Positions 8,886 to 26,144 of a DNA stretch of 31,064 nucleotides are shown one piece after another. The notes beneath the pieces were generated by a model. It had not been told where the DNA came from, made no database searches, and worked only from the letters and a program-made list of their open reading frames with translations. Each line of letters begins with the position of its first letter. Within the stretch, counting starts at the first letter, position 1. A program made the translations under genes and the position numbers. The DNA is from a virus. The stretch spans positions 1 to 31,064 of IMG/VR virus record IMGVR_UViG_3300005577_000068; one strand, written 5' to 3'.

Positions 8886-9377
8886 CTATGGCGTCGCCTG
8901 CAGTGTCTTTGACTCGAAGAAGTGGAGCGTGAGCCGCTGCTCAAACTCTGAGCGCGGCGCCGCTCCGCGGATCGCCGTCTCTCGTGGGCCGACGTCGAAC
9001 GACGAGATCAGCTCGACGCCGCCGGTGTAGAGCTTGTCGCTGGCGTAGAAGGCGGTCATGAAGTCGTCCCAGAGGCGGAGGCGCCAGACCTCGCCGCCGA
9101 TCCCCGACGTCGCCGCGGCGTAGCCGGTGACGCGGACCTCCATCCGATGCCGCACGGAGACCATGCCGCCGACGCTCCCCTCGATCTTCGACTCGCCGCC
9201 GATCTCCTCGAAGGCGAGCGCCGGAACGGGGATATTCGCGTCCGCCGGCCTCGAGCCCTCGAAGACGGTGAGCGCGGCCGGCAGGTACGGGCCGCCCCAG
9301 CCCGGCCGGGTGCCGGTCAGGCTCGCGCCGACCGCCATGAGCGCTTGAAACACGCGCACCGGGTAAGGCTCCGCCAT
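8886..9377 (-). CDS. Tail terminator-like protein (gpU position)
   Basis: A 163-residue protein that starts at ATG 9377 in a TGATG overlap with the gpZ-like gene. It contains a strand-rich region (SVRHRMEVRVTGY, then GGEVWRLRLWDDFMTAFYAS) and a C-terminal strand LTLHFFES. It sits between gpZ-like and tail tube genes, exactly where lambda U (tail terminator, which caps the tube after it reaches full length) is placed. The fold pattern of mixed helix and sheet and the size agree reasonably, but sequence evidence alone is weak. Confidence 0.65.
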   Translation of the reverse strand: MAEPYPVRVFQALMAVGASLTGTRPGWGGPYLPAALTVFEGSRPADANIPVPALAFEEIGGESKIEGSVGGMVSVRHRMEVRVTGYAAATSGIGGEVWRLRLWDDFMTAFYASDKLYTGGVELISSFDVGPRETAIRGAAPRSEFEQRLTLHFFESKTLQATP

Positions 9378-9928
9378 CAGCTCACCGACGCCGTCGTCGC
9401 GACGCCGACCTGGCGCTGCATTTCGACCTGCACACGTTCCACGAGGAACGAAATCAGGCCGGCCGGGACCTGGGCCGGCACGGTCACGCGCTGCTCGCGG
9501 ATCGGGAGATAGGAGCGGTTCGGGCCGCGGCGCTGCGCTGGGCGCGTGCCGCGACGGAAGACGCCCGTCCGGCCGCTGCGCATCGTCGCGAGGAAGGCGT
9601 GGCGCAGCTCGCCGGAGCGGCCGCCCGGGACCAGGTAGCGGACGCCGGTCGCGGTCTGCTCCGGGTTCAGCTTGGCGGCGCGCACGCGCAGCGGCGCCAG
9701 CATCAGGACCCCGGCGAGGTTGAGCGGGCTCGCGCTCGAGGTCTTCGCGGTGCCCGTCGTCTCGCGCGGCGTGATGCCGTACTGCGCGGCCAGGCGGCGC
9801 GCGGCCTCTTCGCGCCCGGCGATGACCGCGGCATTGATCGCCAGCGCGGCGCCGACCTGGATCGCGGCGGCGGTCTTCTGAAGACCGGCCTGCAGCTTCG
9901 AGGTGTCGACGCGGATGGTCACGTCCAT
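9377..9928 (-). CDS. Minor tail protein Z-like (tail completion)
   Basis: A 183-residue basic protein beginning MDVTIRVDTSKLQAGLQ, a typical opening of gpZ/HK97-gp10-like proteins, followed by an Ala-rich helix (AAIQVGAALAINAAVIAGREEAARR) and a basic middle (RRGTRPAQRRGPNRSYLPIREQRVTV). Lambda gpZ is needed for correct joining of finished tails and for positioning the DNA end. Start is ambiguous: the junction reads GTGATG, allowing GTG 9931 (GTGA overlap) or ATG 9928 (TGATG overlap); I used the ATG. Neighbours (connector and terminator genes) support the role. Confidence 0.78.
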   Translation of the reverse strand: MDVTIRVDTSKLQAGLQKTAAAIQVGAALAINAAVIAGREEAARRLAAQYGITPRETTGTAKTSSASPLNLAGVLMLAPLRVRAAKLNPEQTATGVRYLVPGGRSGELRHAFLATMRSGRTGVFRRGTRPAQRRGPNRSYLPIREQRVTVPAQVPAGLISFLVERVQVEMQRQVGVATTASVS

Positions 9929-11712: not shown

Positions 11713-13164
11713 TCAGGCGCCGGCGTTCTTGTAGAGGCCGCGGAAGTCGATCGCCTTCGCGGCGAAGTCGTGCCGGCACTTCACCTCGAGGCCGTCGATG
11801 TCGAAGCCGACGCGGCTCTCGACGACGGGGCCTTCCTCGCCGTCCAGGAAGCCGTATTCGATGATGTCGATCTGGTCCGTCGAGGCGCCCAGATACCAGG
11901 CGGTCGTCGAGCCCGCGACCGTGTCGCCGTCGACGGTGACGCCGCCGGCGAGGCGGGGCTCCGAGATCACGGACAGCCGGCCCGCGAACGGGTTGACGCT
12001 GCTGCCCAGGGCCGGGGTGATCGCGGTGGTGAACTGGTCCGCGATCGTCTCCTTCTCCGGCGGCACCATCAGCGACCGCGCGACCAGGTTGAGGTAGTTC
12101 GTGCCGCCGGCGAGGCCGGTCTGCTTGCGCATCAGCGCGCGGCCGACGCCCAGGGAGTCGATGCTGATCGCGGTCCCGGAGCTCGTGAGGTTGTTGTGCG
12201 TCGCGTGGAACAGGGCGACGGTGTCGGCCATCGCGGCGTTCTTCAGGATCTGATACCAGATCACGTCCGACTCGAGGTTGCGGGCGGAGCGCCCGAACAT
12301 CGTCGTCAGCCGGCCGAAGGCGTCGAGGTCATCGTTGACCAGGCCCTGCCGGGTGATCGCGAAGATCTTGCCGTAGGTCGCGAGCTGAAACTGCTCCTTG
12401 CCTTCGGCGACGGAGCCGCGGCGGAACTCGCCGTGCTCGAGCACCTTCTCGAGGGCCGGGGCCTCGCCGAGCTGGTTCCGCTTCACCGGCTTGAAATCCG
12501 GCATGTTGATCCGGCGCGCGATCGGCGTCCAGGTCGCCGGCGCCTCGTCGTAGGCGCGACGCAGCGACTTGTTCGCCACGTCGGCGAGCAGGTTCGGGAA
12601 GTCGGAGGTGGTGTGCATCCCCGCCCGGACGTGGAAGCCGAACGCCGCCGCGGCCAGCTCCATCTTCGTCAGCGAGCGGGTGCGGATCCCGCGCTGCTCG
12701 AGGCACTCCGCCGCGATCTCGAGCAGCGACCGCGAGCGATACTGCTTCGCGTTGTCGTCGAGCTTCCAGTGGTCCGGCGAGATCCGGTGCAGCAGCGCGC
12801 CGGTGATCCCGCGCCAGACCTGCTCGAGCGGATCGGCGCCGACGAACTCGACGCGGCCGCTGGTCGGGCCCGGCTTCGGGCCCTGGCCGTCCATCGCGCG
12901 GCCGCGCAGGGTCTCGAGGACCTGGGCCTGCGCGTCGAGCAGCGGGGTCTTCTCCGCGATCATGCGCTGGGCCGTCGTCATCGGCAGGCGGCCGGCCTCG
13001 CACGCGGACAGGATGCCCTGGATCCGGGCCCGCTCCTCGTCGACCGCGCGATCGGCCGCGTTCGGCACGACGGCGGGCTGCGGCTGGGGCTGGCCGCCGG
13101 CGGGCGCCGGCTGCGGCTGACTCGGCTCGGGCTGCTCGCGGGTCTCGAGCTCGACTGGATCCAT
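11713..13164 (-). other. Possible internal start giving stand-alone capsid protein (483 residues)
   Basis: Within the fusion gene, ATG 13164 (Met205, MDPVELETREQPEP) is preceded by AGGAG seven bases upstream, a better ribosome site than that of the full-length start. The product would begin right after the protease domain and contain the linker and the whole capsid domain. This would let the phage make capsid protein in excess over protease, comparable to the nested C/Nu3 genes of lambda. It is a sequence-based prediction. Confidence 0.5.
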
Positions 13165-13776
13165 TGCGCTGCTCCTCTCGGGTGTGGGTGCGCCGCGCGT
13201 GATGACGCACGGATTGGTCGGAACGGTCTCGCTCCGGATGTTGGCGGCGTCGTCAGCGGCGATCGGGACGGCGCTGACCTCGAAGGGCTCCCAATCGGTC
13301 GCGTGCATTTTGCGGAGGGTGTTCTTCGCGGCGGGCGTCTCTTCGTACTCGTAGACGCGATAGCCGACGCTGATCTTGCGGACGATGCCGTCCTGCACGT
13401 CCTGCCAGATCGGCTCGACGTCGGCGCGCCGCGAGAAGCGGATCCGTGCGCGGCCCTGCGTGCCGTCGACCTTCGCGGATCCGTCGTTGACCGCGCCGAT
13501 GACGTTGCGAAGGGAAAACGCCATGTGCGAGTCGAGGACGGGCGCGCCGTTGTTCAGGCGGCCCAGCCGGACATGCTTCGACTCGAGGGAGAGGCTCTCG
13601 AGCCAGCGCTCGCCGGTGAGCCAGTTGAAGCGCTCGACGGGCGTGCCCTGAGACCAGACGACGTCGACGGATCGGTCGGTTCGATTGATCGAGGCTGGGA
13701 CGATGTCGGCGCGGACGCTGAAGGCGGGAACATCGACCGTGCGCTTCGGATCCCCGGCTGACGCGGCGCGCTCCAT
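11713..13776 (-). CDS. Prohead protease / major capsid protein fusion
   Basis: A 687-residue fusion. Residues 1-~185 form a HK97-type (U35) prohead protease: LDSHMAF carries a likely catalytic His84, RKISVGYRV a likely catalytic Ser136, and WEPFEVSAVPIAADDAA (162-178) is the conserved family end. Residues ~200-260 are a Pro/Gln/Glu-rich linker. From ~265 on is the capsid part, with a helical delta-domain-like region, then FPNLLADVANKSLRRAYDE, GEFRRGSVAEGKE, LVNDDLDAFGRL and GLEVKCRHDFAAKAIDFRGLYKN at the C-terminus, all familiar in HK97-fold capsids of the fusion class. The first ATG lacks a clear ribosome site, whereas an internal ATG (13164) has a strong one. Confidence 0.92.
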   Translation of the reverse strand: MERAASAGDPKRTVDVPAFSVRADIVPASINRTDRSVDVVWSQGTPVERFNWLTGERWLESLSLESKHVRLGRLNNGAPVLDSHMAFSLRNVIGAVNDGSAKVDGTQGRARIRFSRRADVEPIWQDVQDGIVRKISVGYRVYEYEETPAAKNTLRKMHATDWEPFEVSAVPIAADDAANIRSETVPTNPCVITRGAPTPERSSAMDPVELETREQPEPSQPQPAPAGGQPQPQPAVVPNAADRAVDEERARIQGILSACEAGRLPMTTAQRMIAEKTPLLDAQAQVLETLRGRAMDGQGPKPGPTSGRVEFVGADPLEQVWRGITGALLHRISPDHWKLDDNAKQYRSRSLLEIAAECLEQRGIRTRSLTKMELAAAAFGFHVRAGMHTTSDFPNLLADVANKSLRRAYDEAPATWTPIARRINMPDFKPVKRNQLGEAPALEKVLEHGEFRRGSVAEGKEQFQLATYGKIFAITRQGLVNDDLDAFGRLTTMFGRSARNLESDVIWYQILKNAAMADTVALFHATHNNLTSSGTAISIDSLGVGRALMRKQTGLAGGTNYLNLVARSLMVPPEKETIADQFTTAITPALGSSVNPFAGRLSVISEPRLAGGVTVDGDTVAGSTTAWYLGASTDQIDIIEYGFLDGEEGPVVESRVGFDIDGLEVKCRHDFAAKAIDFRGLYKNAGA

Positions 13777-14110: not shown

Positions 14111-14472
14111 CCGCGAGCCTCCTCCTCGTTCCCCTCCCCCGTGACCGCCGAGATCACCGCGTCGCGGGCGATCTGGAAGGAGCGGTCCCCGTTGTGATCG
14201 TGCCGCGGCTGCAGCGCGCGGGCGGCCGCGAGGCGCTCCTCGAGCGGGCCGTCGACCTCGAGCTCCGCGACCGCGCGATCGCGGCCGGCGGTGAAACACT
14301 GCGGGCAGGCGTGGTCCGGGACCGGCATCTTCTTGACCCCGGCCAGGCGATCCTTCGCGCCCTTGACCTTGGCGATGTCCGCGCGGACCTTGTCCGATCC
14401 CTTGGGTTCGCCCGGGCCCGCGGCTCCCGCGCCTGGTTCCATGCGGTTCGTCAGCTCTCCGTCCTTGATCAT
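14107..14472 (-). CDS. Hypothetical protein with single Cys pair
   Basis: A 121-residue hydrophilic protein starting at ATG 14472 with AGGAGG six bases upstream, in an ATGA overlap with the repeat-protein gene. The N-terminal half is Lys/Gly/Pro-rich and probably disordered; residues 51-62 (PDHACPQCF) contain a CxxC that could bind a metal with His neighbours; the C-terminal half is charged and helical (LEERLAAARALQ; SFQIARDAVISAV). I do not recognise a family. Its tight coupling to flanking genes suggests expression with the virion block. Confidence 0.65.
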   Translation of the reverse strand: MIKDGELTNRMEPGAGAAGPGEPKGSDKVRADIAKVKGAKDRLAGVKKMPVPDHACPQCFTAGRDRAVAELEVDGPLEERLAAARALQPRHDHNGDRSFQIARDAVISAVTGEGNEEEARG

Positions 14473-15662
14473 GTCGATCCTCCTGTGGCGACGACGAGGA
14501 TGTCCTCGTCGGGTTCGGCCTCGATGGCAATGACCCACTGCCCGGGGTTGGCGACGGCGCCCAGGCCGCGCGCGGTCGGCGCGACGGCGCGCCCTCGAGC
14601 GTCGGCGGTGATCCGGAGGCGCCCCCGGGCCTGCACCCGGGCGCCAGCGGCCTCGAGCTGCCCGCGCCCCGGGATCCTGACGGTCGCGACGGCGTCGGCC
14701 GTCGCCGGCGCCGCGACCAGGCGGCCGACGCCGGTGATGCGCGGCGGCCGCGCGGCGATGCCTGGGGAGGGCGGCGCCTCCTCCTCCGGCCCGACGCTGA
14801 GGCTGCCCTGCGCGGTTGCGGTCGCCGTGACGAAGGCCGCGAGGCGGATCCCCGTCGTCAGCGCGCCGGCCGCGCTCGCCGTAGCGGTCACCGCGGCCGC
14901 GAGCTGGTCGCCGGGCACGCTCAGGTCGCCACTGGCTGTAGCGCTGGCCGACACAGACGCGGCGAGGCGGATCCCGGTCGTCAGGGCGCCAGCGGTCTGC
15001 GCCGACGCGGCGACCGCCCCGGCCAGCGGCTTCGGAACGGTCAGATCGCCGGCGGTCGAGGCGGCGGCGCTGGCTGCGGCCGCGAGGCGAATGGCCGTCG
15101 AGAGGACCGCCTGCGCGGCCGCTGTCCCCTGGATCGAGGCCGCGAGCCGGATCAGCGCGGTCAGGGCGCCGGCGACGGATGCCGTGGCGGTGACGGAGGC
15201 GGCCGGGCGGATCGACGTGCTGAGCACGCCGGCGACCTGGGCCGTCGCGGTGACCGACGCGGCCGCCCGGATCTGGGTCGTGAGCGCGCCCGCAACCTGG
15301 GCCGTCGCAGTGACGGCTGCGGCCGGGCGGATCTGCGTCGTCAGGGCGCCCGCGACGGATGCCGTGGCCGTGACCGCGCCGGCCAGCCGGATCGACGTCG
15401 AGAGCGCCCCGGCACCCTGCGCGGTCGCCGTCACGGAGGCGGCCGCGCGGATCTGAGTCGTGAGGGCGCCGGCGGTCGTCGCCGTGGCGGTGATCGAGGC
15501 CTCGAGCTCCGCGGCGGCGCCGATGAGCCCGAAGACCAGCTCGCCCGTCTCCGCGACATGCCCGGTCCCGTCACCATGCGAGATGACAAGCTGGCCGGTC
15601 GCGACGACGATCCACTGCCCGCCGATGAAGCTGACGAGCGCGCCGGTCGAGGTCTGCGCCAT
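14469..15662 (-). CDS. Alanine-rich protein built of twelve 20-residue repeats
   Basis: A 397-residue protein. Residues 1-50 (SFIGGQWIVVATGQLVISHG) form a small strand-rich head; residues ~56-296 are twelve nearly regular 20-residue repeats with the pattern S/A-V-T-A-T-A-x-x-A-G-A-L-T-T-x-I-R-x-A-A; the rest is another strand-rich segment ending in a short acidic tail. It has no Cys and no signal peptide, unlike the genes next to it upstream. Repeats of this kind appear in phage fibre-like or stalk proteins and may form a beta-solenoid or trimeric shaft; this is inferred. It shares the transcript with the secreted-protein genes and overlaps the next gene (ATGA). Confidence 0.78.
   Translation of the reverse strand: MAQTSTGALVSFIGGQWIVVATGQLVISHGDGTGHVAETGELVFGLIGAAAELEASITATATTAGALTTQIRAAASVTATAQGAGALSTSIRLAGAVTATASVAGALTTQIRPAAAVTATAQVAGALTTQIRAAASVTATAQVAGVLSTSIRPAASVTATASVAGALTALIRLAASIQGTAAAQAVLSTAIRLAAAASAAASTAGDLTVPKPLAGAVAASAQTAGALTTGIRLAASVSASATASGDLSVPGDQLAAAVTATASAAGALTTGIRLAAFVTATATAQGSLSVGPEEEAPPSPGIAARPPRITGVGRLVAAPATADAVATVRIPGRGQLEAAGARVQARGRLRITADARGRAVAPTARGLGAVANPGQWVIAIEAEPDEDILVVATGGST
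14775..15497 (-). repeat. Twelve tandem 60-bp coding repeats
   Basis: The DNA shows a 60-bp period for about 720 bp: for example gccgtcgcggtgac / gccgtggcggtgac begins successive units at 15181, 15241, 15301 and 15361. Units differ mainly at third positions and at a few codons, so they are diverged copies; one unit carries a three-base insertion. The period equals 20 codons exactly, keeping the frame. Such arrays can gain or lose units by recombination. Confidence 0.9.
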
Positions 15663-15696: not shown

Positions 15697-18390
15697 CTAG
15701 TACCGCCAGAGCCAGAGGGAGTTTGTATCGCCGCCGGCGCAGAACTGCTGCCCCGCCATGATGGTGACGTCGTCCTTCGCGTCGTAGGCCATGCTGTTGC
15801 CGTGCACGCCGGCCGGCGCGGCGAACGCTTCCCATGAATCGGAGGGCGGGTCGTAGACCAGCATCTTCGTGACCGTCCCGCACGGACCGTCGGTCGTGTA
15901 CGGATAAATGACTTTGTTGTTCTTGGAGTCGAAGTCGACCCAGGTGAAATACGCCATGTAGCTCGTGTCCTGATCAAGCGGCGGCGCGACGGGCGCGTGG
16001 GTCTTCATCGCCCAGGTGTTGGTCACCCGATCGAAGACGAACATGCCGAGTCTGACCTCGACGGTATTGCCTGGCTGATCGACTCGGCGCACGGGCACGA
16101 CGGCGTAGAGCTTCCGCCTGGCGTTGTCCCAGCCGAAGAAGACGCGGTGCGGAGACTGCGGGGTCAGCCATCCCCCGGTCTCGCCGGACCAGGCCGGGCT
16201 TGGACGCAAGCACAGATCGAAGGCCTGCTGCGCCAGCGTCGCGAGCGTCGTGACGATCAATTGCCCGACGCAATCGCCGCTGCTCTCGAAGTGCAGCATG
16301 GCGTCCGCCGCGCTGTCGTAGGCGCCGCCGCCAAGCGAGCTGCCGGGCCCGCCCTTGTATTCCCACTGGCCGGTCGCCTTCGCCCACTTGAGCAGGCCCA
16401 GGCGCTGGATCGCGCCGCCCGGGCCGCACGGCTGGCCCTCTTCATCGGGAGGAAAGGGCAGGCTGTTCCTGTACCAGATGTCGCTCCGACTGTCCTCGAT
16501 CATCGGCCCACGGTCGGACGGATGATTGAGCACGATGGGGCTGACGCTCGCTGGGACGCACGCCGGCACGACGACCGCCCAGAGATCTCGCGCGGCGTCG
16601 TAGCTGTAGAGGTTGCTATCCGCGCCTGAGTTGCAGACGTCCCCGGTGCCCCAGAGGACGCTCCCGTCGAGGCGGCGCGCGCGGTTGACGTCCTTGCTCC
16701 CACACCGCGACGGGAAGGGATTCCCGGTCATGGGCGTCGCGCGCTGCACGAACGTCCGGCTTGGGATGGTGAGACCGCCGGATGGCGGCGGCGGAGGCGG
16801 AGGTGGCGGAGGAGGAGGCGGCGGCGGATCGACCGGCGGAGGCGGAGGTGGCGGCAATGTCCCGCCCGGCTTCCACTCCCAGACTTCCGTCCCGTTGCCG
16901 GAGACCAGCAGGAGCACCCGCTGGCGCACGCGATCGTAGAGCGGGATGTATTTCACGATCGGCACCGGGCTTGGGCTCAGCGCCATTTGCTGCTTCCGCC
17001 AGACGCGCGTCGCGAGGTCGAGCAGGTACGTCTCCGCGACCACGGTGCCGCACGGGTCGCTCGAGTTGGTGCAGCCCGCGTAGCCGACGATCGTGTTGGC
17101 GGCCTCGTGGAGCGCGAACACCGTCAGCGATGGCGGCTTCGGCCCGGTCGTCGGGATCAGCGTCCACTTGTTCGCGGCCGGGTCGTAGTCGTACAGCTCC
17201 TGGAAGTTGCCGACGTACCACAGGTGCCCGGTCCGGCGGTCGATGCCGCCGCGGAGCATTCCGATCCGCGCGCCGTCCTGGGTCCCGTCCTCGATCTTGG
17301 GCGGCAGCGGCGGGTTCGGGTTCAGGTCGATCCAGGGCGCGCTGATCGGCGAGAGCGGCTTCTGCCGCAGCGGGCCCATGCCCCAGCCGGCGAAGCAGTA
17401 GAGGACCTTCCGTTGCGGGTCGACGGCGACGACGGCGTCCGCCGCACAGGCGGTCGGGGCGATCGTGTAGGTGCGCGCCACGGGATCGAAGACCTGCGCG
17501 CTGTCGAGGTCGCCCATCGGCATTCCGGCCTGGGCGCCCAGCCAGGCGACGCCGTTGACCGGATCGAAGTCGGTCCCGAAGTTCTCCCGCTTGCCGCTGA
17601 CCTCCGGCGTCGTCGCGATCCTCGCCCAGGTGTTGGCGGCCGGGTCGTAGAGGTGCGTCCCCGCCCAGGTCATCCACACCTTCCCGTGGTCGGCGTGGCC
17701 CGGCTTGTCGATCACGAAGGCGTGGCTCCAATACCAGCCCCACGGCGCCACGCTCGTCGCCAGGTGCTGGACCCAGGTGCCCATGCCCCCACTCGCCGGT
17801 GGCACCGGCGGGTCGGTGATCGTCACCGTGCACGCCAGCGCGGTCGCGGGCATCACGATCGAGACACTCGCATTCGAGGTCTGCGGACAGCCCGCCGGGC
17901 CGCTCCACTGCACCGCGGCGCCCGCGACCGACGGCGTCGCGGTCAGGGCGACCGTCGCGCCGGCGAGATAGCTGCCCGCGCCGGTGGTCGTCCCAGCGCC
18001 GACGGTCGAGACGGTCAGCGGATACGTCGTCGGCTGCGGCGCCGGTGTCACCGTCCGCGTGCACACCTTGTTCGCGGCGGGCTGCTTCATGGAATCGGCG
18101 CAGCCGCTCGACCAGGCGCCCAGGCTCGAGCCGTTGGTCGGCTTCACCGAGAGGGTCAGCGCCGTGCCCGCGAGCTGCGGCCCGGTCGGCGTCACCGACG
18201 TCGTCGCGGTGCCGCCGCCGGCGAGCGCGATCGTCGTGGTGAACTTCGGCGCCGGTGGTGTGCAGACCAGGCCGCTCGAGGTCACGCTGCAGCTCGAGCC
18301 GAGCGGAATGGTCTGCGCGCCCGCCATCGACGCCACGACCAGGAACTGCAGGAAGGCGAGCAGCGAAAGGACGTGTAGCTGCTGCAGCAT
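15697..18390 (-). CDS. Secreted double kelch-propeller protein with polyproline hinge
   Basis: An 897-residue protein from ATG 18390, preceded by GAGGAGG. Residues 1-26 form a Sec signal peptide (hydrophobic LLAFLQFLVVASMAGAQ, cleavage after AGA likely). Residues ~45-200 hold two bacterial-repeat/Ig-like domains (each with a paired Cys and TVS...GSYLAGATVALTATP type pattern). Residues ~205-510 make a kelch/galactose-oxidase-like propeller with blades such as HLYDPAANTWARI, YDYDPAANKWTLI and TYLLDLATRVWRK. Residues ~512-536 are almost pure proline. Residues ~545-897 form a second propeller (LYSYDAARDLWAVV, MFVFDRVTNTWAMK, MLVYDPPSDSWEAF). There are 18 Cys, an even number fitting disulfides outside the cytoplasm. 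No copper-ligand set of galactose oxidase could be confirmed. Role unknown; adhesion or cell-surface function is possible. Confidence 0.85.
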   Translation of the reverse strand: MLQQLHVLSLLAFLQFLVVASMAGAQTIPLGSSCSVTSSGLVCTPPAPKFTTTIALAGGGTATTSVTPTGPQLAGTALTLSVKPTNGSSLGAWSSGCADSMKQPAANKVCTRTVTPAPQPTTYPLTVSTVGAGTTTGAGSYLAGATVALTATPSVAGAAVQWSGPAGCPQTSNASVSIVMPATALACTVTITDPPVPPASGGMGTWVQHLATSVAPWGWYWSHAFVIDKPGHADHGKVWMTWAGTHLYDPAANTWARIATTPEVSGKRENFGTDFDPVNGVAWLGAQAGMPMGDLDSAQVFDPVARTYTIAPTACAADAVVAVDPQRKVLYCFAGWGMGPLRQKPLSPISAPWIDLNPNPPLPPKIEDGTQDGARIGMLRGGIDRRTGHLWYVGNFQELYDYDPAANKWTLIPTTGPKPPSLTVFALHEAANTIVGYAGCTNSSDPCGTVVAETYLLDLATRVWRKQQMALSPSPVPIVKYIPLYDRVRQRVLLLVSGNGTEVWEWKPGGTLPPPPPPPVDPPPPPPPPPPPPPPPSGGLTIPSRTFVQRATPMTGNPFPSRCGSKDVNRARRLDGSVLWGTGDVCNSGADSNLYSYDAARDLWAVVVPACVPASVSPIVLNHPSDRGPMIEDSRSDIWYRNSLPFPPDEEGQPCGPGGAIQRLGLLKWAKATGQWEYKGGPGSSLGGGAYDSAADAMLHFESSGDCVGQLIVTTLATLAQQAFDLCLRPSPAWSGETGGWLTPQSPHRVFFGWDNARRKLYAVVPVRRVDQPGNTVEVRLGMFVFDRVTNTWAMKTHAPVAPPLDQDTSYMAYFTWVDFDSKNNKVIYPYTTDGPCGTVTKMLVYDPPSDSWEAFAAPAGVHGNSMAYDAKDDVTIMAGQQFCAGGDTNSLWLWRY
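16782..16855 (-). repeat. Proline-codon (CCN) tract
   Basis: The + strand reads as a long series of GGN triplets, i.e. CCN codons on the coding strand. It encodes about seven prolines, a Val-Asp break and about fifteen more prolines between the two propellers. Long proline runs normally stall ribosomes unless EF-P assists, and the tract may vary in length between relatives. Confidence 0.85.
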
Positions 18391-18407: not shown

Positions 18408-19109
18408 TCAGTCTTGCGCCCCGGCATCGACGCAGGCGTCGATCGAGGTGCGGAGCTGCGCCAGCGTGCGCGGCGCCATCGCGGGCTGACGCCGGACGAC
18501 GACCGCCCAGGTCCCGCTTGCGGGGTTCGCGACGGCGCCGGTGCCGTTGTGCAGGCGCACGTTGACCGTGTTCGCGGCGCTGATGTAGCCCGTCGCCGTG
18601 ACCCCGGCCAGCGTGTAGGGCGCGATGACGTCGACGATGTCGCCGAAGGCCGCGCCGGTGACCGTGACGTTGGGGCTGGTCACGCCCGTCGCGTTGTTCA
18701 TACTCGCGGGATCCCACACCGCGGTCTGCGTGCCGATCACCACGCCGCGGAGCAGGTTGATCTCGTCCTTCAGGATGTCGGCGAAGCAGCGGAGCGCCTT
18801 GCCGAGCTCCGTCGCGCTCGCCCACTGCGCCTTCGCCAGCGTGCGCGCCCGGAGATTTTCATAGCTGGTCTGCGCGCCCGCGCTCCAATCAAAGGCATTG
18901 ATCGTCGCCTGGGCACAGGCCTGCTGCGCGGCCGGCTGGACGGTGACCGACGCGGCGACGCCCGGCGTGCCGATCGAGAGCCCGACCACGGAGGGACAGA
19001 CCGCGACGACCGCCTCGTGCAAACGCAACGAGATCGCGGTCTGCGCGTGGGCCGGCAGCGCGATCGCGCCGACCAGGACCAGGGCGAGCCAGAGGCCGCG
19101 GGTCAGCAT
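18408..19109 (-). CDS. Signal-peptide protein with phage structural-type C-terminal domain
   Basis: A 233-residue protein with ATG 19109 overlapping the previous stop by seven bases (ATGCTGA). Residues 1-22 (GLWLALVLVGAIALPAHAQ) are a Sec signal peptide with AHA before the cut. The middle is helical, with YENLRARTLAKAQWASATELGKALRCF. The C-terminal ~90 residues (VWDPASMNNATGVTSPNVTVTGAA...DIVDVIAPYTLAGVTATGYISAANTVNVRLHNGTG) match a beta-sandwich module common in phage structural proteins, where GD..LV......L.G......VSAANTV.V...N.TG is the recurrent signature. Four Cys lie outside the signal. A virion-type module behind an export signal is odd. Function unknown. Confidence 0.8.
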   Translation of the reverse strand: MLTRGLWLALVLVGAIALPAHAQTAISLRLHEAVVAVCPSVVGLSIGTPGVAASVTVQPAAQQACAQATINAFDWSAGAQTSYENLRARTLAKAQWASATELGKALRCFADILKDEINLLRGVVIGTQTAVWDPASMNNATGVTSPNVTVTGAAFGDIVDVIAPYTLAGVTATGYISAANTVNVRLHNGTGAVANPASGTWAVVVRRQPAMAPRTLAQLRTSIDACVDAGAQD

Positions 19110-20392
19110 TCCAGGATCGCTACCAGGCCGGCCTCCGACGATCCGGTCGCGGAGCCGCCGCCGGTGAATTGCACCGTGCCCAGGCTGAGCGTCGTCTCGA
19201 TCGCCGCGAGGTAGTGGTAGCCCCTCGACGTGACGCCGCGCCAGGAGGCCTTGAGGACGTCGGCCTGGTCGATGGTGGCGCTCGCCGAGGAGGCATAGGC
19301 CCGCCCGGCGGGGCCCATGCGCGCGGTCGTCGAGTCCAGGCCGACGCCCACCATCGCGAGCCGGGAAATGCCCGCCGTAATGGCCGCGTACCATTCGCCG
19401 ATGACATCGACCGCCACCGGCATCGGCGAGCCGGAGACGTACTCGACCTTATTCCCCGCGGCGTTGTTGAATTGCCGGAATCCGCCGTTATAGGTCCACG
19501 ACGCGGTGTCGTCGCGCACGCTCGCCGCGCAGCGCACGCGGTTGTGCTGATTCCACAGGAAGCGCTTGCCGCCGACCTGGCTGACGACGCCGCCGAAGCT
19601 GTCCTCCGTGACCGTCGTGCTCACCGGGTAGAACGTCCCGACGAGCTGGCGCGTCTTGTCCGTCGTCTTCGTGCACGGGCTGGTGTAGGTGCTGATCGGG
19701 CCCTCGCGACACGTCACGTTCGCCGCGGGCACCGTCGCGGAGGACCACTGCAGGAGCTCGAGCGTCCAGCCGCTCGCGACCCGCGCCAGGAAGACGTCGA
19801 CGGGAATCGTCGCGCTGCCCAGCGTGCCGATCGCGACGCTCAGCTCGCTCGGGATCGCCGCCTGCTGCCACTTGCCGCCGGTCCAATACGGCGCCCAGCA
19901 GTGGACGAAACAGGTGTAGCGGACCGTCGTCGACTGGATCCCGAACGGCCGGATCTCCGCGGTGATCGACGCCGTCAGGTTGACCTTGCTGGTGCCGGCC
20001 TCCGCATTGGCGAGCGTCGTGTGGTACGAGACGACCGTCGGCGAGCCGACCGCGCTGCTGACGTTGACCCAGTACGTCGTCCCCGCCGTGAGCCCGCCGC
20101 CCGTCGCGGACGGCGTCACCATCGTCCCGGTGCACCATCCCAGGTTGAGGAACGTCGTCGACTCGGCCGTCGTGTCGGTGCTCGAGGGCGTCGCCGGCAC
20201 CGGACCGTAGGCGGGGTTCTGCGTGCAGAGCGTGAGCCGCCCGCCGGGCGCGTAGGGCACGGCCGACGGCATCATCGTTGGGCCGGTCCACGGCGCGCCG
20301 GAGCTGCCCCACGGGTTGACCTGGGCGGACGCGGGACCGACTGCGAGGAGGCCGATCAGCAGCAGGAGGAGCGCGGCGGCGCGGCGCTTCAC
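19103..20392 (-). CDS. Large secreted protein of unknown function
   Basis: A 429-residue protein with a GTG start that overlaps the previous stop by one base (TAGTG). Residues 1-23 form a clear Sec signal peptide: KRR, then AAALLLLLIGLLAVG, then ASA cut before QVNPWG. The mature part is rich in Thr, Ser, Val and Trp with strand-like alternation and has eight Cys, suggesting disulfide-bonded beta-domains. Strings such as FLWNQHNRVRCAASVRDDTASWTYNG and VDVIGEWYAAITAG give no family I recognise. It ends in Cys. Gene coupling ties it to the three other exported proteins. Confidence 0.8.
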   Translation of the reverse strand: MKRRAAALLLLLIGLLAVGPASAQVNPWGSSGAPWTGPTMMPSAVPYAPGGRLTLCTQNPAYGPVPATPSSTDTTAESTTFLNLGWCTGTMVTPSATGGGLTAGTTYWVNVSSAVGSPTVVSYHTTLANAEAGTSKVNLTASITAEIRPFGIQSTTVRYTCFVHCWAPYWTGGKWQQAAIPSELSVAIGTLGSATIPVDVFLARVASGWTLELLQWSSATVPAANVTCREGPISTYTSPCTKTTDKTRQLVGTFYPVSTTVTEDSFGGVVSQVGGKRFLWNQHNRVRCAASVRDDTASWTYNGGFRQFNNAAGNKVEYVSGSPMPVAVDVIGEWYAAITAGISRLAMVGVGLDSTTARMGPAGRAYASSASATIDQADVLKASWRGVTSRGYHYLAAIETTLSLGTVQFTGGGSATGSSEAGLVAILEC

Positions 20393-20745
20393 TACTTCAC
20401 CCGGACGCAGCGCACCCAGATCAGCGCATTATTCGCGGCGCCGGTGCCCGGCTTGATCCGGTAGCGCTCCGTCTCCGTGTTGCGCAGGAAGACCGGCCGG
20501 CCGACTTGCGGATCCGTCAGCGTTTCCCCGCACGTCTCGTTGGTCCCGTCATAGGTGCAGAGCTTGATCGTGTCGCTATGGTCGACGGTCTGACAGATAT
20601 TCTCCGTGCCCGCGCTCGCGGCCAGGTCGAGCGTGTCGCTGGTGTCGAAGTCGGTGTCCTTGAAGATCACCGTATCGCCGACCGCCGCGTGCGCGGCCGC
20701 CGTGGCGACGAGGACCAGGACGAGCGCGAGGAGCCCGCGTCGCAT
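20392..20745 (-). CDS. Small secreted Cys-containing protein
   Basis: A 117-residue protein that opens RRGLLALVLVLVATAAAHA, a Sec signal peptide with cleavage likely before AVGDTV. The mature ~97 residues include four Cys (ICQ, LCTYDG, TCGETL, RCVRV) and a strand pattern. The junction with the upstream gene reads GTGATG, so the start is GTG 20748 or ATG 20745; ATG is used. The product may be a small disulfide-linked periplasmic or surface protein. No family recognised. Confidence 0.78.
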   Translation of the reverse strand: MRRGLLALVLVLVATAAAHAAVGDTVIFKDTDFDTSDTLDLAASAGTENICQTVDHSDTIKLCTYDGTNETCGETLTDPQVGRPVFLRNTETERYRIKPGTGAANNALIWVRCVRVK

Positions 20746-21182
20746 CACGCCAGCGTCACGTCGAGCGCGCCGATCGCGTAGTTCGGCGCGGCGTCGCCGT
20801 CGTTGACCGTCTTCGGGTTCGTCAGCGCGCCGTAAAAGAGCATGTTGCCGCCGGTCGGCGCGTCCCAGATCCCGAAGTGCGTGCAGACGCCCCAGTTCGC
20901 GCCCGACGGCGCCGGGAATGTGATCGCGACGGCGTTGTCGGTGTGGCCGCCGGTGCCGCTCGAGTTGCCGGAGGTGCCGCCCTGGGTCGAGGTCCAGTTG
21001 GTGTCGCTGGGGTCGAGCTGGGCGCGCGCGTAGGCGCCGCCGCTCACCTCCGCGCCGCTCCCCGCGTCGGTCGGGTCCGCGGTGTGCAGGGAGACCCAGA
21101 GCGCACTCGGCTTCGAGAAGGTCGCCGCGCGGAAGACGTGGTCGATCAGCTTGTTCTCGAGGTAGTTGCTGAAGGCCGACAT
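20745..21182 (-). CDS. Phage structural-type protein (tail-fibre-like family)
   Basis: A 145-residue protein starting MSAFSNYLENKLIDHVFRAATFSKPSALWVSLHT, followed by ADPTDAGSGAEVSGGAYARA and FPAPSGANWGVCTHFGIWDAPTGGNMLFYG. This is a widespread phage family sometimes annotated as tail fibre or head-associated protein; the N-terminal LENKLIDH...FS.P...WV.L.TADPTD motif is very characteristic. No signal peptide. It marks the boundary between conventional phage proteins and the exported group downstream. Exact virion position is not known to me. Confidence 0.78.
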   Translation of the reverse strand: MSAFSNYLENKLIDHVFRAATFSKPSALWVSLHTADPTDAGSGAEVSGGAYARAQLDPSDTNWTSTQGGTSGNSSGTGGHTDNAVAITFPAPSGANWGVCTHFGIWDAPTGGNMLFYGALTNPKTVNDGDAAPNYAIGALDVTLA

Positions 21183-21188
21183 CGGGTT

Positions 21189-21602
21189 TTAGCCCCCTCT
21201 CGGTTGCGTGTAAACGAGGCTGGTGATCACGACCTCTGCCCCGGCGATGATCGTGGCGACGGGCAGCTCGAGGTCGGCGCGCGAGCCCTCGAGGCCGACC
21301 GCCCCGTCGAAGATGGCGCGTCCGTCGGCGCTCACCGCCCGGAACCAGGTCGGCGGGCCGTTGGCGAGCGCGCGCGCGGCGGCCAGTGGGTGCGCGGTTG
21401 CCGTGCCGTCCTTGGCGGGGCCGAAGGCCGGATCCGCGAAGGCGACCTCGACCAGGCGGATCGCGGTGTCGCCGGGCGAGCCGTCCGCGGAGCGCGGCCG
21501 CGGCCCGCTATAGATCCGCAGCCCGCCGCCGTTCAGGAGGGCGACGACCGCGTCCGCAGCGGCGTCGACCGCGCGCCGGGCCTGGCGGAAATCACTCGGC
21601 AT
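21189..21602 (-). CDS. Small phage structural-type protein, family common in phages
   Basis: A 137-residue protein starting at ATG 21602, overlapping the end of the portal gene. It has the arrangement AADAVVALLNGGGLRIYSGPRP, then LVEVAFADPAFGPA, GPPTWFRAVSADG, AIFDGAVG and a C-terminal VATIIAGAEVVITSLVYTQP. This is a small beta-domain seen in many phage genomes, LRIYTG and WFR....G..V.DG.VG being the steady points. Role unassigned; likely a virion or appendage protein together with the 20745-21182 product. Confidence 0.72.
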   Translation of the reverse strand: MPSDFRQARRAVDAAADAVVALLNGGGLRIYSGPRPRSADGSPGDTAIRLVEVAFADPAFGPAKDGTATAHPLAAARALANGPPTWFRAVSADGRAIFDGAVGLEGSRADLELPVATIIAGAEVVITSLVYTQPRGG

Positions 21603-23826
21603 CGGTGGCGGGGATCCCGCTCCCTGGCTCGACCGGCGGGCGCGCCGGCACGCGAACGACCGTCACGGTCGGCGGGGCCGGCGCCTGCTGGACGGTGACC
21701 GGCGACGAGATCTGCACGGCGCCTTCGGCGATCGTCGTCCGGGCATCGACCTCGACCGCGGGCGGATGGACCTCCGTCCGCACCGCGCCGTCGGCGAAGG
21801 TCACGGAGGGCGGCGCGACGGAGACCGCCAGCGAGCCGGGCTCGAGCGTCGTCCGCGCGTCCACCGCGATCGCCGGCGGGTGCACCTCCGCCCGGATCGC
21901 GCCCTCCGCGATCGTCAGCGAGGGCGGCGCGACCGACACCGCGAGGGCGCCGGGCTCGAGGGTCGTCCGCGCGTCGACGTGCACCTCCGCCGGCGGCGCG
22001 GCCGCGACCTCGACGGCGCCGCGCTGCAGCGTCGTCCGCGCATCGACGTAGACCTCCGCCGGCGGCGGCGGGGCGACCTGGACGGCGCCGGCCTCGACGC
22101 GAACGTCGGTCCGGGCGTCGATGTTGGGCGCCGGCGCCGCGGCGACGTGGGCGTGCACCTCGAGCGGCCGGACGGCGTCCAGGCGGGCGCGCAGGTCGGC
22201 GAGCTCGAGCTGCAGGACCCGGACGCTGGCCGCGCCGGCGGGCCGGTCCTCGAGGTGCCCGGCGCCATTCCTCGAGCCGTTGCCGTTCCCGTTGCTCGAG
22301 GGCGCCGCCGGCGGCTTCGCGGGCGCGTCCGCGCTCGAGCCGTCCGCCTTCGAGCTGTCCCGCGGGTTGCCCGCCTGGGTCGTGCGCCGCGGGTCGGAGT
22401 CGAGGATCACGCCGGCCCGGTCCAGCTTCTTGTTCCAGGCCTCGATTTCGCCCAGGACCTTGTCGGGGTTGAGGCCCCGCTCGCGCATCATGTCCGGCCA
22501 GGACGTGGCGCCGATCCGGAGCATTTTCTGGTAAGCCGAGGCCTCCGCCTCCGGGTCGATCGCGGGCATCGCCGGCGCCGTCCACTCGATCGGGCCGGTG
22601 ACCGTCGGGAGGCGCATGACCGCGGCGGCCTGGTTCGCCCAGCGCCAGGACGGATCACAGAACTGGGGCACGATCAGGCGCCAGCGCCAGTCTTCGATCC
22701 GCGCCCAGGACCGGATCCGGGACATGCGCGCCGCGGAGAAGGGCATCCCCTGGTAGTCGCCGCACAGGTCCTCGTAGGTGATCCCGATCCCCGACGCGAT
22801 CGCGCGCAGGACCGTCCGCGCGTAGGCCTCGTGCTCGCTCACGGAGGGCGGTTGGACGACGGTGACGGTGCGGCCGGTCGGCAGGTTGGCGATCATGCCG
22901 GGCTCGATCGCGTCGATCGCCGGCGTCGTCGAGCTGTCGGCCGTGCCCAGCGCCGGCGCCGTGCCGTCGGGGTCGGTCGTGAGCACCGCGAGGCAGGCGG
23001 CGATCTTCTGCTTCAGGAGGGCCGCGTCCTCGTAGTCGTCGAAGTCCTTCAGGCGCAGGATCACCGGCGCGAGCCAGGACATCCCGCGGACCTGGCCGGG
23101 CCGCTCCGGCTTGAAGACGTGCAGGATCTCGCTCGCGGGGATCGGCCTCGAGTTGCGGGATCGGGTGACCCGGGTGCCGCTCGCGCCGGGGTGATCGTCG
23201 AAGAGCCAGTAGTTCACCCGCGCGCCGATCGGGCTGAACTCGACGCCCTGGATGATCTGACCGCCGGTGCCGGTGACGCCCTCCTTCGTCGTGTCGAGCA
23301 GGTCGGGCTCGATGAGCTGAAGCTGCAGCGGGATCGGCAGGCCGTCCTCGGGCCGCCGCCAGCGCCGTCGCACCAGGCACTCGCCCGCCTCCGCCGTCGT
23401 GCGGGTGACCTGCTTCTGCAGGCCGGCGAAGTCGTAGCGCCCGTCGGCGTCGCACGCCGTCGTCTCCGCCCACGGCTTCCACCAGGTCGGCGGCGAGCCC
23501 TGGGCCACGATCCCCCAGCCGACGACGTGGTCGGCGATCGTGTTCAGCGCCGCGGCCGCGTAGGGGTTGTTTCGGACCAGGTCGCGCGCGACCTCGCGGG
23601 TGCGCTCGAGGCCCTGGCCGATCACCGCGTTCACGTCGCCCGTGTTGCGGCGCCAGCCCTGGGTTCGGCGACCGGAGCTCGCCGCGTCGTAGGCGCGCAG
23701 GAGGGCCGCCTCGTAGCGGGCGCGCTGCCGGCGCAGGGTGAAGCGTGGCGCGAACGTCGACGTCACGAGGTCGACGAGCTCGCCGATCCGGATCGCCGCC
23801 TGGGCCGCGAGGTCGGTCGGCGTCAC
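21592..23826 (-). CDS. Portal protein, lambda family, with repetitive C-terminal extension
   Basis: About 744 residues. The first ~510 match lambda-family portals: SSGRRTQGWR, ...RDLVRNNPYAAAALNTIADHVVGWGI, GECLVRRRWR, LQLIEPDLLD, YEDAALLKQKIAACLAVLTT, SGIGITYEDLCGDYQGMPFSAARMSRI and MMRERGLNPDKVL. The portal forms the dodecamer through which DNA is packed and to which the tail joins. Beyond ~515 is a Ser/Asn/Gly linker, then ~200 residues of VDARTTLEPG-type repeats not present in plain portals (usual length ~500-550). Start: GTG 23826 gives a GTGA overlap with the gpW-like gene; a TTG two codons upstream (23832) is also possible. Confidence 0.93.
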   Translation of the reverse strand: MTPTDLAAQAAIRIGELVDLVTSTFAPRFTLRRQRARYEAALLRAYDAASSGRRTQGWRRNTGDVNAVIGQGLERTREVARDLVRNNPYAAAALNTIADHVVGWGIVAQGSPPTWWKPWAETTACDADGRYDFAGLQKQVTRTTAEAGECLVRRRWRRPEDGLPIPLQLQLIEPDLLDTTKEGVTGTGGQIIQGVEFSPIGARVNYWLFDDHPGASGTRVTRSRNSRPIPASEILHVFKPERPGQVRGMSWLAPVILRLKDFDDYEDAALLKQKIAACLAVLTTDPDGTAPALGTADSSTTPAIDAIEPGMIANLPTGRTVTVVQPPSVSEHEAYARTVLRAIASGIGITYEDLCGDYQGMPFSAARMSRIRSWARIEDWRWRLIVPQFCDPSWRWANQAAAVMRLPTVTGPIEWTAPAMPAIDPEAEASAYQKMLRIGATSWPDMMRERGLNPDKVLGEIEAWNKKLDRAGVILDSDPRRTTQAGNPRDSSKADGSSADAPAKPPAAPSSNGNGNGSRNGAGHLEDRPAGAASVRVLQLELADLRARLDAVRPLEVHAHVAAAPAPNIDARTDVRVEAGAVQVAPPPPAEVYVDARTTLQRGAVEVAAAPPAEVHVDARTTLEPGALAVSVAPPSLTIAEGAIRAEVHPPAIAVDARTTLEPGSLAVSVAPPSVTFADGAVRTEVHPPAVEVDARTTIAEGAVQISSPVTVQQAPAPPTVTVVRVPARPPVEPGSGIPATDAE
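21695..22125 (-). repeat. Degenerate repeats at portal C-terminus
   Basis: Five copies of (V/I)DART(T/D), separated by 23-37 residues and followed by E.GA(L/V).V..APP strands, cover about 140 residues. Two central copies also share SVAPPS(L/V)T.A(E/D)GA(I/V)R(A/T)EVHPPA. The DNA copies are recognisable (gtccgcgcgtccacc / gtccgcgcgtcgacg). Confidence 0.8.
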
Positions 23827-24101
23827 GGACAAAGGCCCTTCGAGTGGGCGGCGTAGCGCGTGGTCGAGCCCGTCGACGCCGCCGCCACGTCGGCCTCCGC
23901 CTCCGCGATCGCTGTGCGGAGGGCGTCGATCTCGTCGAACTCGACTTCTCGATTCTCGAACTTGACGCGCTGGGCGGCGGCGCCGGACAGGCGCGCGAGG
24001 TAGGCCGCGCGGAGGGTCGCGAGCTCCTCAGCCGTCCAAGCCAAGTGAGCGGGCGGAGAGACGGGCGGCGCGGGAGAGCAGCACGTCGACTCCGTGGGCA
24101 C
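23823..24101 (-). CDS. Head-tail joining protein gpW-like
   Basis: The core (from about LAWTAEELATLRAAYLARLSG to AAQRVKFENREVEFDEIDALRTAIAEAEADV) is the classic two-helix plus hairpin pattern of lambda gpW, a small protein that plugs the portal and prepares it for the tail. The place right before the portal gene is the lambda W position. The GTG 24101 start gives 92 residues with an unusual Cys/Pro-rich N-terminus; the in-frame TTG at 24044 would give 73 residues, closer to the usual ~68. Neither has a strong ribosome site. The end overlaps the portal start. Confidence 0.82.
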   Translation of the reverse strand: MPTESTCCSPAPPVSPPAHLAWTAEELATLRAAYLARLSGAAAQRVKFENREVEFDEIDALRTAIAEAEADVAAASTGSTTRYAAHSKGLCP

Positions 24102-25031: not shown

Positions 25032-25234
25032 GCCCAGGTCATCCGGCGGTCCGTCTCGCTCAGCGCGCACGGCACCACCTCGACGCGATCGAACTCCCGC
25101 GGCCGCGGGATCCGGAACGTCGCCCCGTTCGGGATCAGCCGCGTGCAAACGCGCTGATTCGTCCCCGGCAGCGCGGAGAGCAGCTCGTAGCACGTCGGGC
25201 AGTAGAGAATGCTGACGCCGACGCCGTCAGACAT
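25028..25234 (-). CDS. Small protein with CxxC motif
   Basis: A 68-residue protein at ATG 25234, overlapping the ParB-like gene stop by eight bases (ATGTCTGA); a GTG two codons further upstream is possible. ILYCPTCYELLSALPG carries a CxxC, and two further Cys occur (VCTRL, VPCALSE). The first pair may be half of a zinc ribbon. Not recognised otherwise. Confidence 0.6.
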   Translation of the reverse strand: MSDGVGVSILYCPTCYELLSALPGTNQRVCTRLIPNGATFRIPRPREFDRVEVVPCALSETDRRMTWA

Positions 25235-26144
25235 CCGCACCTCGAGTGTCTTCCTCTCGCCATCGTTTCTCGATGGCCGCCTTCACACTCGGCAGGAACC
25301 GCGCACTTGCCGTCTCGAAGAGGGTGTCCCAATTGATCCGCTTGAGGCCCTCGTAGGTCTTCGGACCTGGGAAGACGACGACCTTCTGCCAGCGATTGGC
25401 CGCCACCAGGCCCAGGGCGACTGCCGGCAATAGCTTCATCGGATGGATCGCTGGGAAGACCAACGGGATCAGCCGAAGGATTGCCTCCGCGCGCGCCTTC
25501 GCCGTCGGATCATTCCGAAGCGCGAAGTCGAGGCGAGAGCAGACCTGTCCAGCTTTGCCATTCGGCAGGAGGCCGGTGGTCGCCGCCAACATCGCCTTGA
25601 TGAGAATGAAGGCGCTATAGGGACGCTTCCCCACCCCCAGGCTCACGTTGCCGTAGTACGGGTCCCCCTCAGTTCGGACGCGCTCCATCAGCATATGCGC
25701 CCCCGGGCCCTGGTGACTCTTGACGATGTTGTCGGCTGCCAGGTTGCGCCTGTTGTTCAGGGCCTGATAGAGCAGCGCCTCTGCCTGTGGTCCCTCGCTC
25801 GTGTAGAGATCGGCCGGAATTGACACGCCGCACTCGAGCGCAGCCATGAACCGCTGAAGGCCGTCGACGATCCACAGCGAGCCGTCCGGGCGCTTCGCAA
25901 TGGCGACGCGCCCGAAGATCCGGCCGCCATTCTTGATGACGTAGATCAGCTCGTTCACGAGGCTGGTCCGCATCCGCTGGTAGGTGGTGTCATCGACCCG
26001 CAGTGAGCCGAACTCGTGGGGCTGGATGGTCCGGGTATCCGCCGGCTGGCCGATGCCCTCGACCACCAGCGCCTCGCGGACGCGGCGCACCTCGTAGACT
26101 GCCCGGCGGCTGTCGTCTGCTAGCACTCTGCCCTTACGACCCAT
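25227..26144 (-). CDS. ParB-like (ParB/sulfiredoxin fold) protein
   Basis: A 305-residue protein with a strong ribosome site (AGGAGGGGACAA before ATG). Residues ~40-115 hold a ParB-nuclease-like core: RTIQPHEFGSLRVDDTTYQRM, then GGRIFGRVAIAKRPDGSLWIVDGLQRFMAALECG. The VDGLQR run (93-98) corresponds to the G-x-x-R/DGxxR box of ParB-like and DGQHR proteins, where a nucleotide is bound. The remainder is helical with no clear motif (AEALLYQALNNRRNLAADNIVKS; KRINWDTLFETASARFLPSV). Base composition seems lower in GC than flanking genes. It interrupts the terminase/portal group, so it may be an acquired moron. True partition role is unlikely; regulator or nuclease is possible. Confidence 0.72.
   Translation of the reverse strand: MGRKGRVLADDSRRAVYEVRRVREALVVEGIGQPADTRTIQPHEFGSLRVDDTTYQRMRTSLVNELIYVIKNGGRIFGRVAIAKRPDGSLWIVDGLQRFMAALECGVSIPADLYTSEGPQAEALLYQALNNRRNLAADNIVKSHQGPGAHMLMERVRTEGDPYYGNVSLGVGKRPYSAFILIKAMLAATTGLLPNGKAGQVCSRLDFALRNDPTAKARAEAILRLIPLVFPAIHPMKLLPAVALGLVAANRWQKVVVFPGPKTYEGLKRINWDTLFETASARFLPSVKAAIEKRWREEDTRGADV

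Follow-up and report, generated by a model that had tools for sequence, protein, structure and literature searches.

The window analysed here, a virus record of 31,064 bases taken in full, carries genes for a terminase, a portal protein, a capsid-protease fusion and head proteins, and hence belongs to a tailed phage. Its capsid protein is 38-39% identical to those of Rhodobacter phages such as RcKemmy. The portal and capsid genes are adjacent in RcKemmy, S1 and MinM1, and in LPPA33, whose genes are unnamed, the gene ahead of the capsid match abuts the capsid gene. In the window the two are separated by 7819 bp, the largest gap among the 152 loci with both genes (the window is one of them, and the near-copies L002 and L003 are both counted), for which the median is 138 bp. 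This 7.8-kb insert and its borders read as follows, in gene order:

21592 to 23832, minus strand: portal protein (phrog_21), upstream border of the insert
21189 to 21602, minus strand: virion structural protein, 137 aa (phrog_3758)
20745 to 21182, minus strand: Gp80-type virion protein, 145 aa, head of a fibre-like string (PF23140, 4.4e-48)
20392 to 20748, minus strand: predicted signal-peptide gene, 117/118 aa (leader call)
19103 to 20392, minus strand: predicted signal-peptide gene, 429 aa (leader call; residues 154-399 similar to the Pam5 tail spike)
18408 to 19109, minus strand: predicted signal-peptide gene, 233 aa (leader call; its start codon ATG shares bases with the stop of the 429-aa gene)
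15697 to 18390, minus strand: putative double-propeller protein P0001, 897 aa (ORF translation)
14469 to 15662, minus strand: alanine/threonine-rich repetitive protein, 397 aa, lacking signal peptide and cysteine
11713 to 13776, minus strand: major capsid and protease fusion (phrog_4523), other border of the insert

The starts and stops of the 118-, 429- and 233-aa genes overlap, and the string is translationally coupled from the Gp80-type gene onwards. The Gp80-type protein matches PDB 8jou_a, a virion-associated phage protein, at 2e-18, and belongs, like Gp80, the fibre I protein of podophage GP4 (PDB 8jou_a), to family PF23140; the fibre I role is that given by the Pfam name. Its gene precedes the coupled partner gene by three places and is a neighbour of P0001, which is not itself a member of the family. 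Genes of the Gp80 region of phage JC1 are described as virion-associated by mass spectrometry in the excerpted report (PMC9144972). Further down the string, residues 154-399 of the 429-aa protein are similar to what is annotated as the tail spike in Pseudanabaena phage Pam5, a spike that has no leader, and part of the 233-aa protein resembles a hypothetical protein of a Sulfitobacter phage encoded beside a putative tail fibre. The 397-aa protein, encoded directly 3' of the P0001 gene, consists largely of repeats of about 22 aa (ASVTATAQVAGALTTQIR-like) and looks like a repetitive fibre. Outside the insert, a ParB-like gene (25230-26144, minus strand; phrog_1033, 6.7e-6) lies between the terminase and portal genes.

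The P0001 gene starts with an ATG at 18390, 17 bases past the stop of the 233-aa gene, and has its own ribosome site, GAGGAGG, six bases 5' of the ATG. GC3 is 0.81-0.97 per 100-codon block, and since it is high in every block the full length is coding, the polyproline run included. An open reading frame of 897 residues had been claimed in the initial annotation, and coordinates, strand and length agree; the word "giant", also used there, is too strong for a protein of this length. Its parts are:

residues 1-25: predicted signal peptide
residues ~47-118 and 123-188: InlB-type repeats
residues ~205-510: kelch propeller
residues 513-536: polyproline
residues 538-897: second kelch-like half

Family matches define the architecture of the N half. 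The InlB B-repeat family PF18998 scores 34.5 bits at residues 123-188 against a Pfam cut-off of 23.6, and finds two stretches once the N-terminal piece is scanned by itself; aligned with one another, the repeats give E 9e-5. Kelch_3, Kelch_4 and Kelch_1 all exceed their Pfam cut-offs within 205-510, where a profile made of seven kelch stretches from phages (hereafter the phage-kelch profile) scores 30.5 bits, a value reached by 0 of 1000 shuffles; profile comparison gives this half a probability of 86.6%. The outer strands, placed by hand at 248, 301, 346, 402, 457 and 502, are spaced by 53, 45, 56, 55 and 45 residues, as would be expected for six blades. The polyproline consists of runs of 7 (513-519) and 15 (522-536), 22 prolines written in mixed CCG, CCT and CCA codons. 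The strict blade motif [YFLVMW]D-x5-W occurs six times in P0001, three times in each half, and none of 2000 shuffles gives six. The earlier reading of two Ig/InlB-like repeats, a first kelch-type propeller, about 22 prolines and blade motifs in both halves is thus borne out.

A second propeller, in the C half, had also been claimed, and the profile evidence makes it likely. The alternative, that this half is an unrelated beta-rich domain and P0001 has a single kelch head, we regard as quite unlikely, even if it would explain why the C half has no Pfam match at E<=1 and why its strands, again placed by hand, are unevenly spaced (71, 46, 72, 60 and 47 residues). Against the PDB sequences the best E is only 0.68, and profile comparison by itself reaches only 49% probability. 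A single head is harder to reconcile with the match of residues 782-861 to phrog_12615 (E 2.2e-8), a family also matched by 9 of the 9 phage kelch proteins compared with it (12 kelch-like ORFs lie in the 31 pattern loci; L276, L280 and L293 were left out of this comparison), or with the phage-kelch profile, which scores 25.4 bits on the C half (0 of 1000 shuffles as high). Scored in pieces, 538-745 gives 9.4 bits and 746-897 gives 21.8, each above all 1000 shuffles; for the InlB region, 659 of 1000 shuffles do as well. The C-terminal end of P0001, NSLWLWRY, moreover parallels the NDLWRIS with which the phage kelch proteins end. Both AlphaFold runs are of low confidence (mean pLDDT 36 for the whole protein from its single sequence; pLDDT 43.5 and pTM 0.43 for the C half aligned with eight kelch-type rows), which leaves room for the single head, and the kelch proteins that top the Foldseek matches of the C-half model (TM 0.25-0.35) are not taken as proof, since the kelch rows in the input alignment make that result circular.

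The two halves need not share a recent ancestor. BLASTP between them finds no match beyond blade size (best E 4e-4), a profile made from the six N blades does no better on the C half than on shuffles (32 of 500 as high), and GC3 differs between the N propeller (0.955) and the C propeller (0.878; p 0.0005). An internal duplication, for which alignment of the halves had been proposed, is unproven on these results, and separate origins would fit better than a recent duplication.

The P0001 gene closes an unbroken run of four genes with predicted signal peptides within a virion-gene operon. All four genes behind Gp80 (118, 429, 233 and 897 aa) have leader-like starts, called with home-made scorers, one loose and one strict, rather than SignalP. 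In P0001, residues 1-25 (MLQQLHVLSLLAFLQFLVVASMAGA, followed by QT) form a hydrophobic core and an A-x-A cleavage site behind a start codon with a ribosome site, and the predicted cut falls between MAGA and QTI. The leader opens MLQQLH and has no K or R ahead of the core, whereas the three neighbouring leaders do; it is the weakest of the four, with a loose score of 3.05, and would fail the strict scorer, which needs K or R at that place. As regards the claim that the protein is secreted, the signal-peptide-like N-terminus and its cleavage site speak for it, and the missing positive charge weakens it. No further convincing leader turns up on the window's coding frames; what else is leader-like is a pair of ORFs antisense to the 397-aa gene, and an amphipathic start at 9377-9922.

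Such leaders are scarce in related phages. Of 2681 genes in related loci, 80 pass the loose scorer. They include a sheath protein (L145), where the leader looks like the product of a wrong start, and a J-like tail fibre (L106), which indicates that some leaders called in this way are false or uncertain. With the strict scorer the number is 18 among 1603 deduplicated phage ORFs and, across 84 loci, 7 of the 381 genes downstream of Gp80; six of these seven belong to the overlapping loci L019 and L020, and the one in L099 is doubtful. On this count we reject the idea that fibre strings behind Gp80 commonly carry signal peptides. J-like tail-fibre proteins with a leader-like start were observed in Rhodobacterales prophages (L106:19488-21650, which matches phrog_5616; L124:19375-21495; L107:9927-11798).

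Cysteine content offers a signature that is independent of the signal peptides. The mature 118-, 429-, 233- and 897-aa proteins contain 4, 8, 4 and 18 cysteines, all even numbers, and together 34 in 1586 residues against 33 in 6048 for 14 other proteins of the window, an excess of about 3.9-fold (odds ratio 4.0, p 4.6e-8). In P0001, by our own assignment, the near-neighbour cysteines pair as 34/43, 97/110, 168/187, 315/332, 440/447, 563/586, 611/655, 707/727 and 837/884. Excess and even counts would fit exported proteins that form disulfides outside the cytoplasm. Among the 16 complete proteins passing the strict scorer elsewhere, cysteines are even and number at least two in 12, are odd in 3 and are absent from 1, and an exported-type protein of 873 aa (L182) has 15.

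A relative of the whole of P0001 was found neither in 50,697 phage records, 72,556 plasmids, one scan of IMG/VR for six exact peptides, nine MCP-related viral records and 260 related loci, nor in 13 genomes and 199 genomes from the phylum of G015; an empty result shows little where it has no positive control beside it. The C half had no relative among 200 genomes from the phylum of G016, its best phage match at a permissive limit being a tortoise microvirus (E 0.09), and the N propeller had generic kelch matches in 4 of 140 genomes. An origin in a host, suggested in the initial annotation, finds no backing here, as neither the whole protein nor the C half has a bacterial relative in these collections and the likeness of the N propeller is generic.

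The same annotation had held that no standard phage protein has this plan, and this is true of the whole layout in the collections searched; kelch repeats on phage fibres, in contrast, are known. Proteins in the IMG/VR loci L267, L282 and L286 join PF12571, a tail-fibre N-terminal domain, to C-terminal kelch repeats. They resemble P0001 as late phage proteins with kelch repeats and share phrog_12615 with its C half, but they carry a tail-fibre attachment domain, in place of which P0001 has a signal peptide, InlB-type repeats, polyproline and two kelch halves; neither Pfam nor PHROGs finds an attachment domain such as PF12571 at its N-terminus. The tailed phage CBB likewise encodes kelch-like proteins (CBB_550, CBB_552 and CBB_554), with CBB_552 detected in the mature particle by mass spectrometry according to the excerpted account; this is, however, a 356-kb myophage, and that excerpt mentions neither a signal-peptide string nor a double propeller (PMC5259590). 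Excerpts of two other reports describe kelch-like proteins of jumbo phages, their function unknown (PMC7760394), and an enrichment of kelch repeats in long-read marine viral data (PMC9238414). Secreted bacterial proteins of the adhesin type with InlB B-repeats (PF18998) share with P0001 a signal peptide followed by divergent repeats; P0001 differs in having no Pfam cell-wall or outer-membrane anchor, in the two propellers after the repeats and in being phage-encoded. Among the open-licence papers listed for kelch proteins or leaders in phages, none describes such a leader string or a double kelch phage protein. What is new is thus the double-kelch layout, absent from every collection searched, and what is known is its parts and the kelch tail fibres; the string of four leader genes in a virion operon is more surprising than the layout itself.

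We suggest, with a probability of about 0.58, that P0001 is a late phage protein exported by Sec and working outside the cytoplasm as a two-headed binding protein. Its putative export is supported by the recurrence in relatives of fibre-like proteins that bear leaders and are richer in cysteine: an 869-aa signal-peptide protein with fibre-like repeats and 10 cysteines occupies the portal-capsid slot of L002/L003, and in L020 the Gp80 gene is followed by three successive leader genes, of which one carries an InlB-type repeat and another an FN3 domain. P0001 would be made late in infection and leave the cytoplasm by Sec, its signal peptide being cut after residue 25 and up to nine disulfides forming from its 18 cysteines in the periplasm. 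The InlB-type repeats may serve as a stalk, and the proline rod, some 7 nm long if extended, would hold the propellers apart, while the heads, to judge by family resemblance, would bind a surface glycan or protein. On the infected cell or on debris the protein could then serve as an adhesin or block receptors, or else virions could acquire it when the cell lyses; we expect it to have no catalytic role. The proposal made at the outset, of a secreted, adhesin-like protein whose two propellers flank a proline spacer, remains the best reading of the sequence; the dumbbell shape is an inference, as both structure predictions have low confidence.

A rather unlikely alternative, in our estimate, is that P0001 is a virion fibre whose uncut N-terminus serves as an anchor, mounted in the cytoplasm near the portal vertex beside the Gp80-type protein, with the propellers binding the receptor. 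The neighbourhood argues for a virion part: the Gp80-type protein is a virion protein by its match to 8jou_a, and the 429-aa neighbour resembles a leaderless tail spike. Gp80 also leads fibre strings in cultured phages, followed for example in BcepMigl by genes of the tail-fibre and pectin-lyase-like kinds and in MW202481 by tail-fibre and lectin-like genes, and kelch repeats occur on PF12571 tail fibres and, in the excerpted account, in the CBB virion (PMC5259590). Yet the N-terminus of P0001 has no phage attachment domain known to Pfam, the cysteine pattern of the four signal-peptide proteins fits an oxidising compartment, and the strict-scorer count behind Gp80 indicates that leaders are not normal in such fibres. 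A secreted enzyme of the galactose-oxidase or NanM (sialic-acid-epimerase) type, altering host surface sugars against superinfection, would account for the kelch propellers, which are common to those enzymes, and P0001 does show a very weak likeness to NanM (Pfam E 0.0033). We consider it very improbable: the comparison with galactose-oxidase-like proteins, proposed in the initial annotation, leaves P0001 far below the cut-offs (16.8 bits against 45 for NANM and 15.7 against 416 for NCBIfam NF010730), and on this ground we reject a galactose oxidase or NanM identity; of galactose-oxidase domains only the kelch repeats match, Pfam finds no galactose-oxidase C-terminal domain, and P0001 stops with its last propeller strand.

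On the established view, tailed-phage fibres are folded and mounted in the cytoplasm. Four disulfide-prone proteins with predicted leaders in one virion operon, together with leader-bearing fibre-like relatives, suggest that a group of phages may send adhesion proteins out of the cell. We raise, as a tentative and on balance doubtful generalization, that some tailed phages pass receptor-binding, fibre-like proteins through Sec to the oxidising periplasm for disulfide folding and use them outside, either loaded on virions at lysis or left on the cell and its debris to mask receptors, and that P0001 and its three neighbours form one such exported adhesion kit. Were this true, export would bear on superinfection exclusion, on the loss of progeny to debris and on the way in which disulfide-dependent domains become usable in receptor-binding proteins. 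The double kelch layout, for its part, would offer two-site binding a new scaffold.

Several observations in other phages touch on these themes. A 51-kb viral record has at least three leader-like starts (L003:5911-8520, the 869-aa protein; L297:12644-13921 and 17112-17690), and L195 and L212 each have a leader on a protein that was judged fibre-like by eye and has no family match. In the cultured cyanophage Pam5, the gene next after the tail spike, Pam5_19 (L095:4840-5307), has the leader-like start MRALSLTLAAGLLAASPAAAF. Two long phage proteins (L273:3-2480 and L291:3528-6272) have a common MPTYTI start and kelch repeats, lack PF12571 and are possibly another family of kelch-bearing virion proteins.
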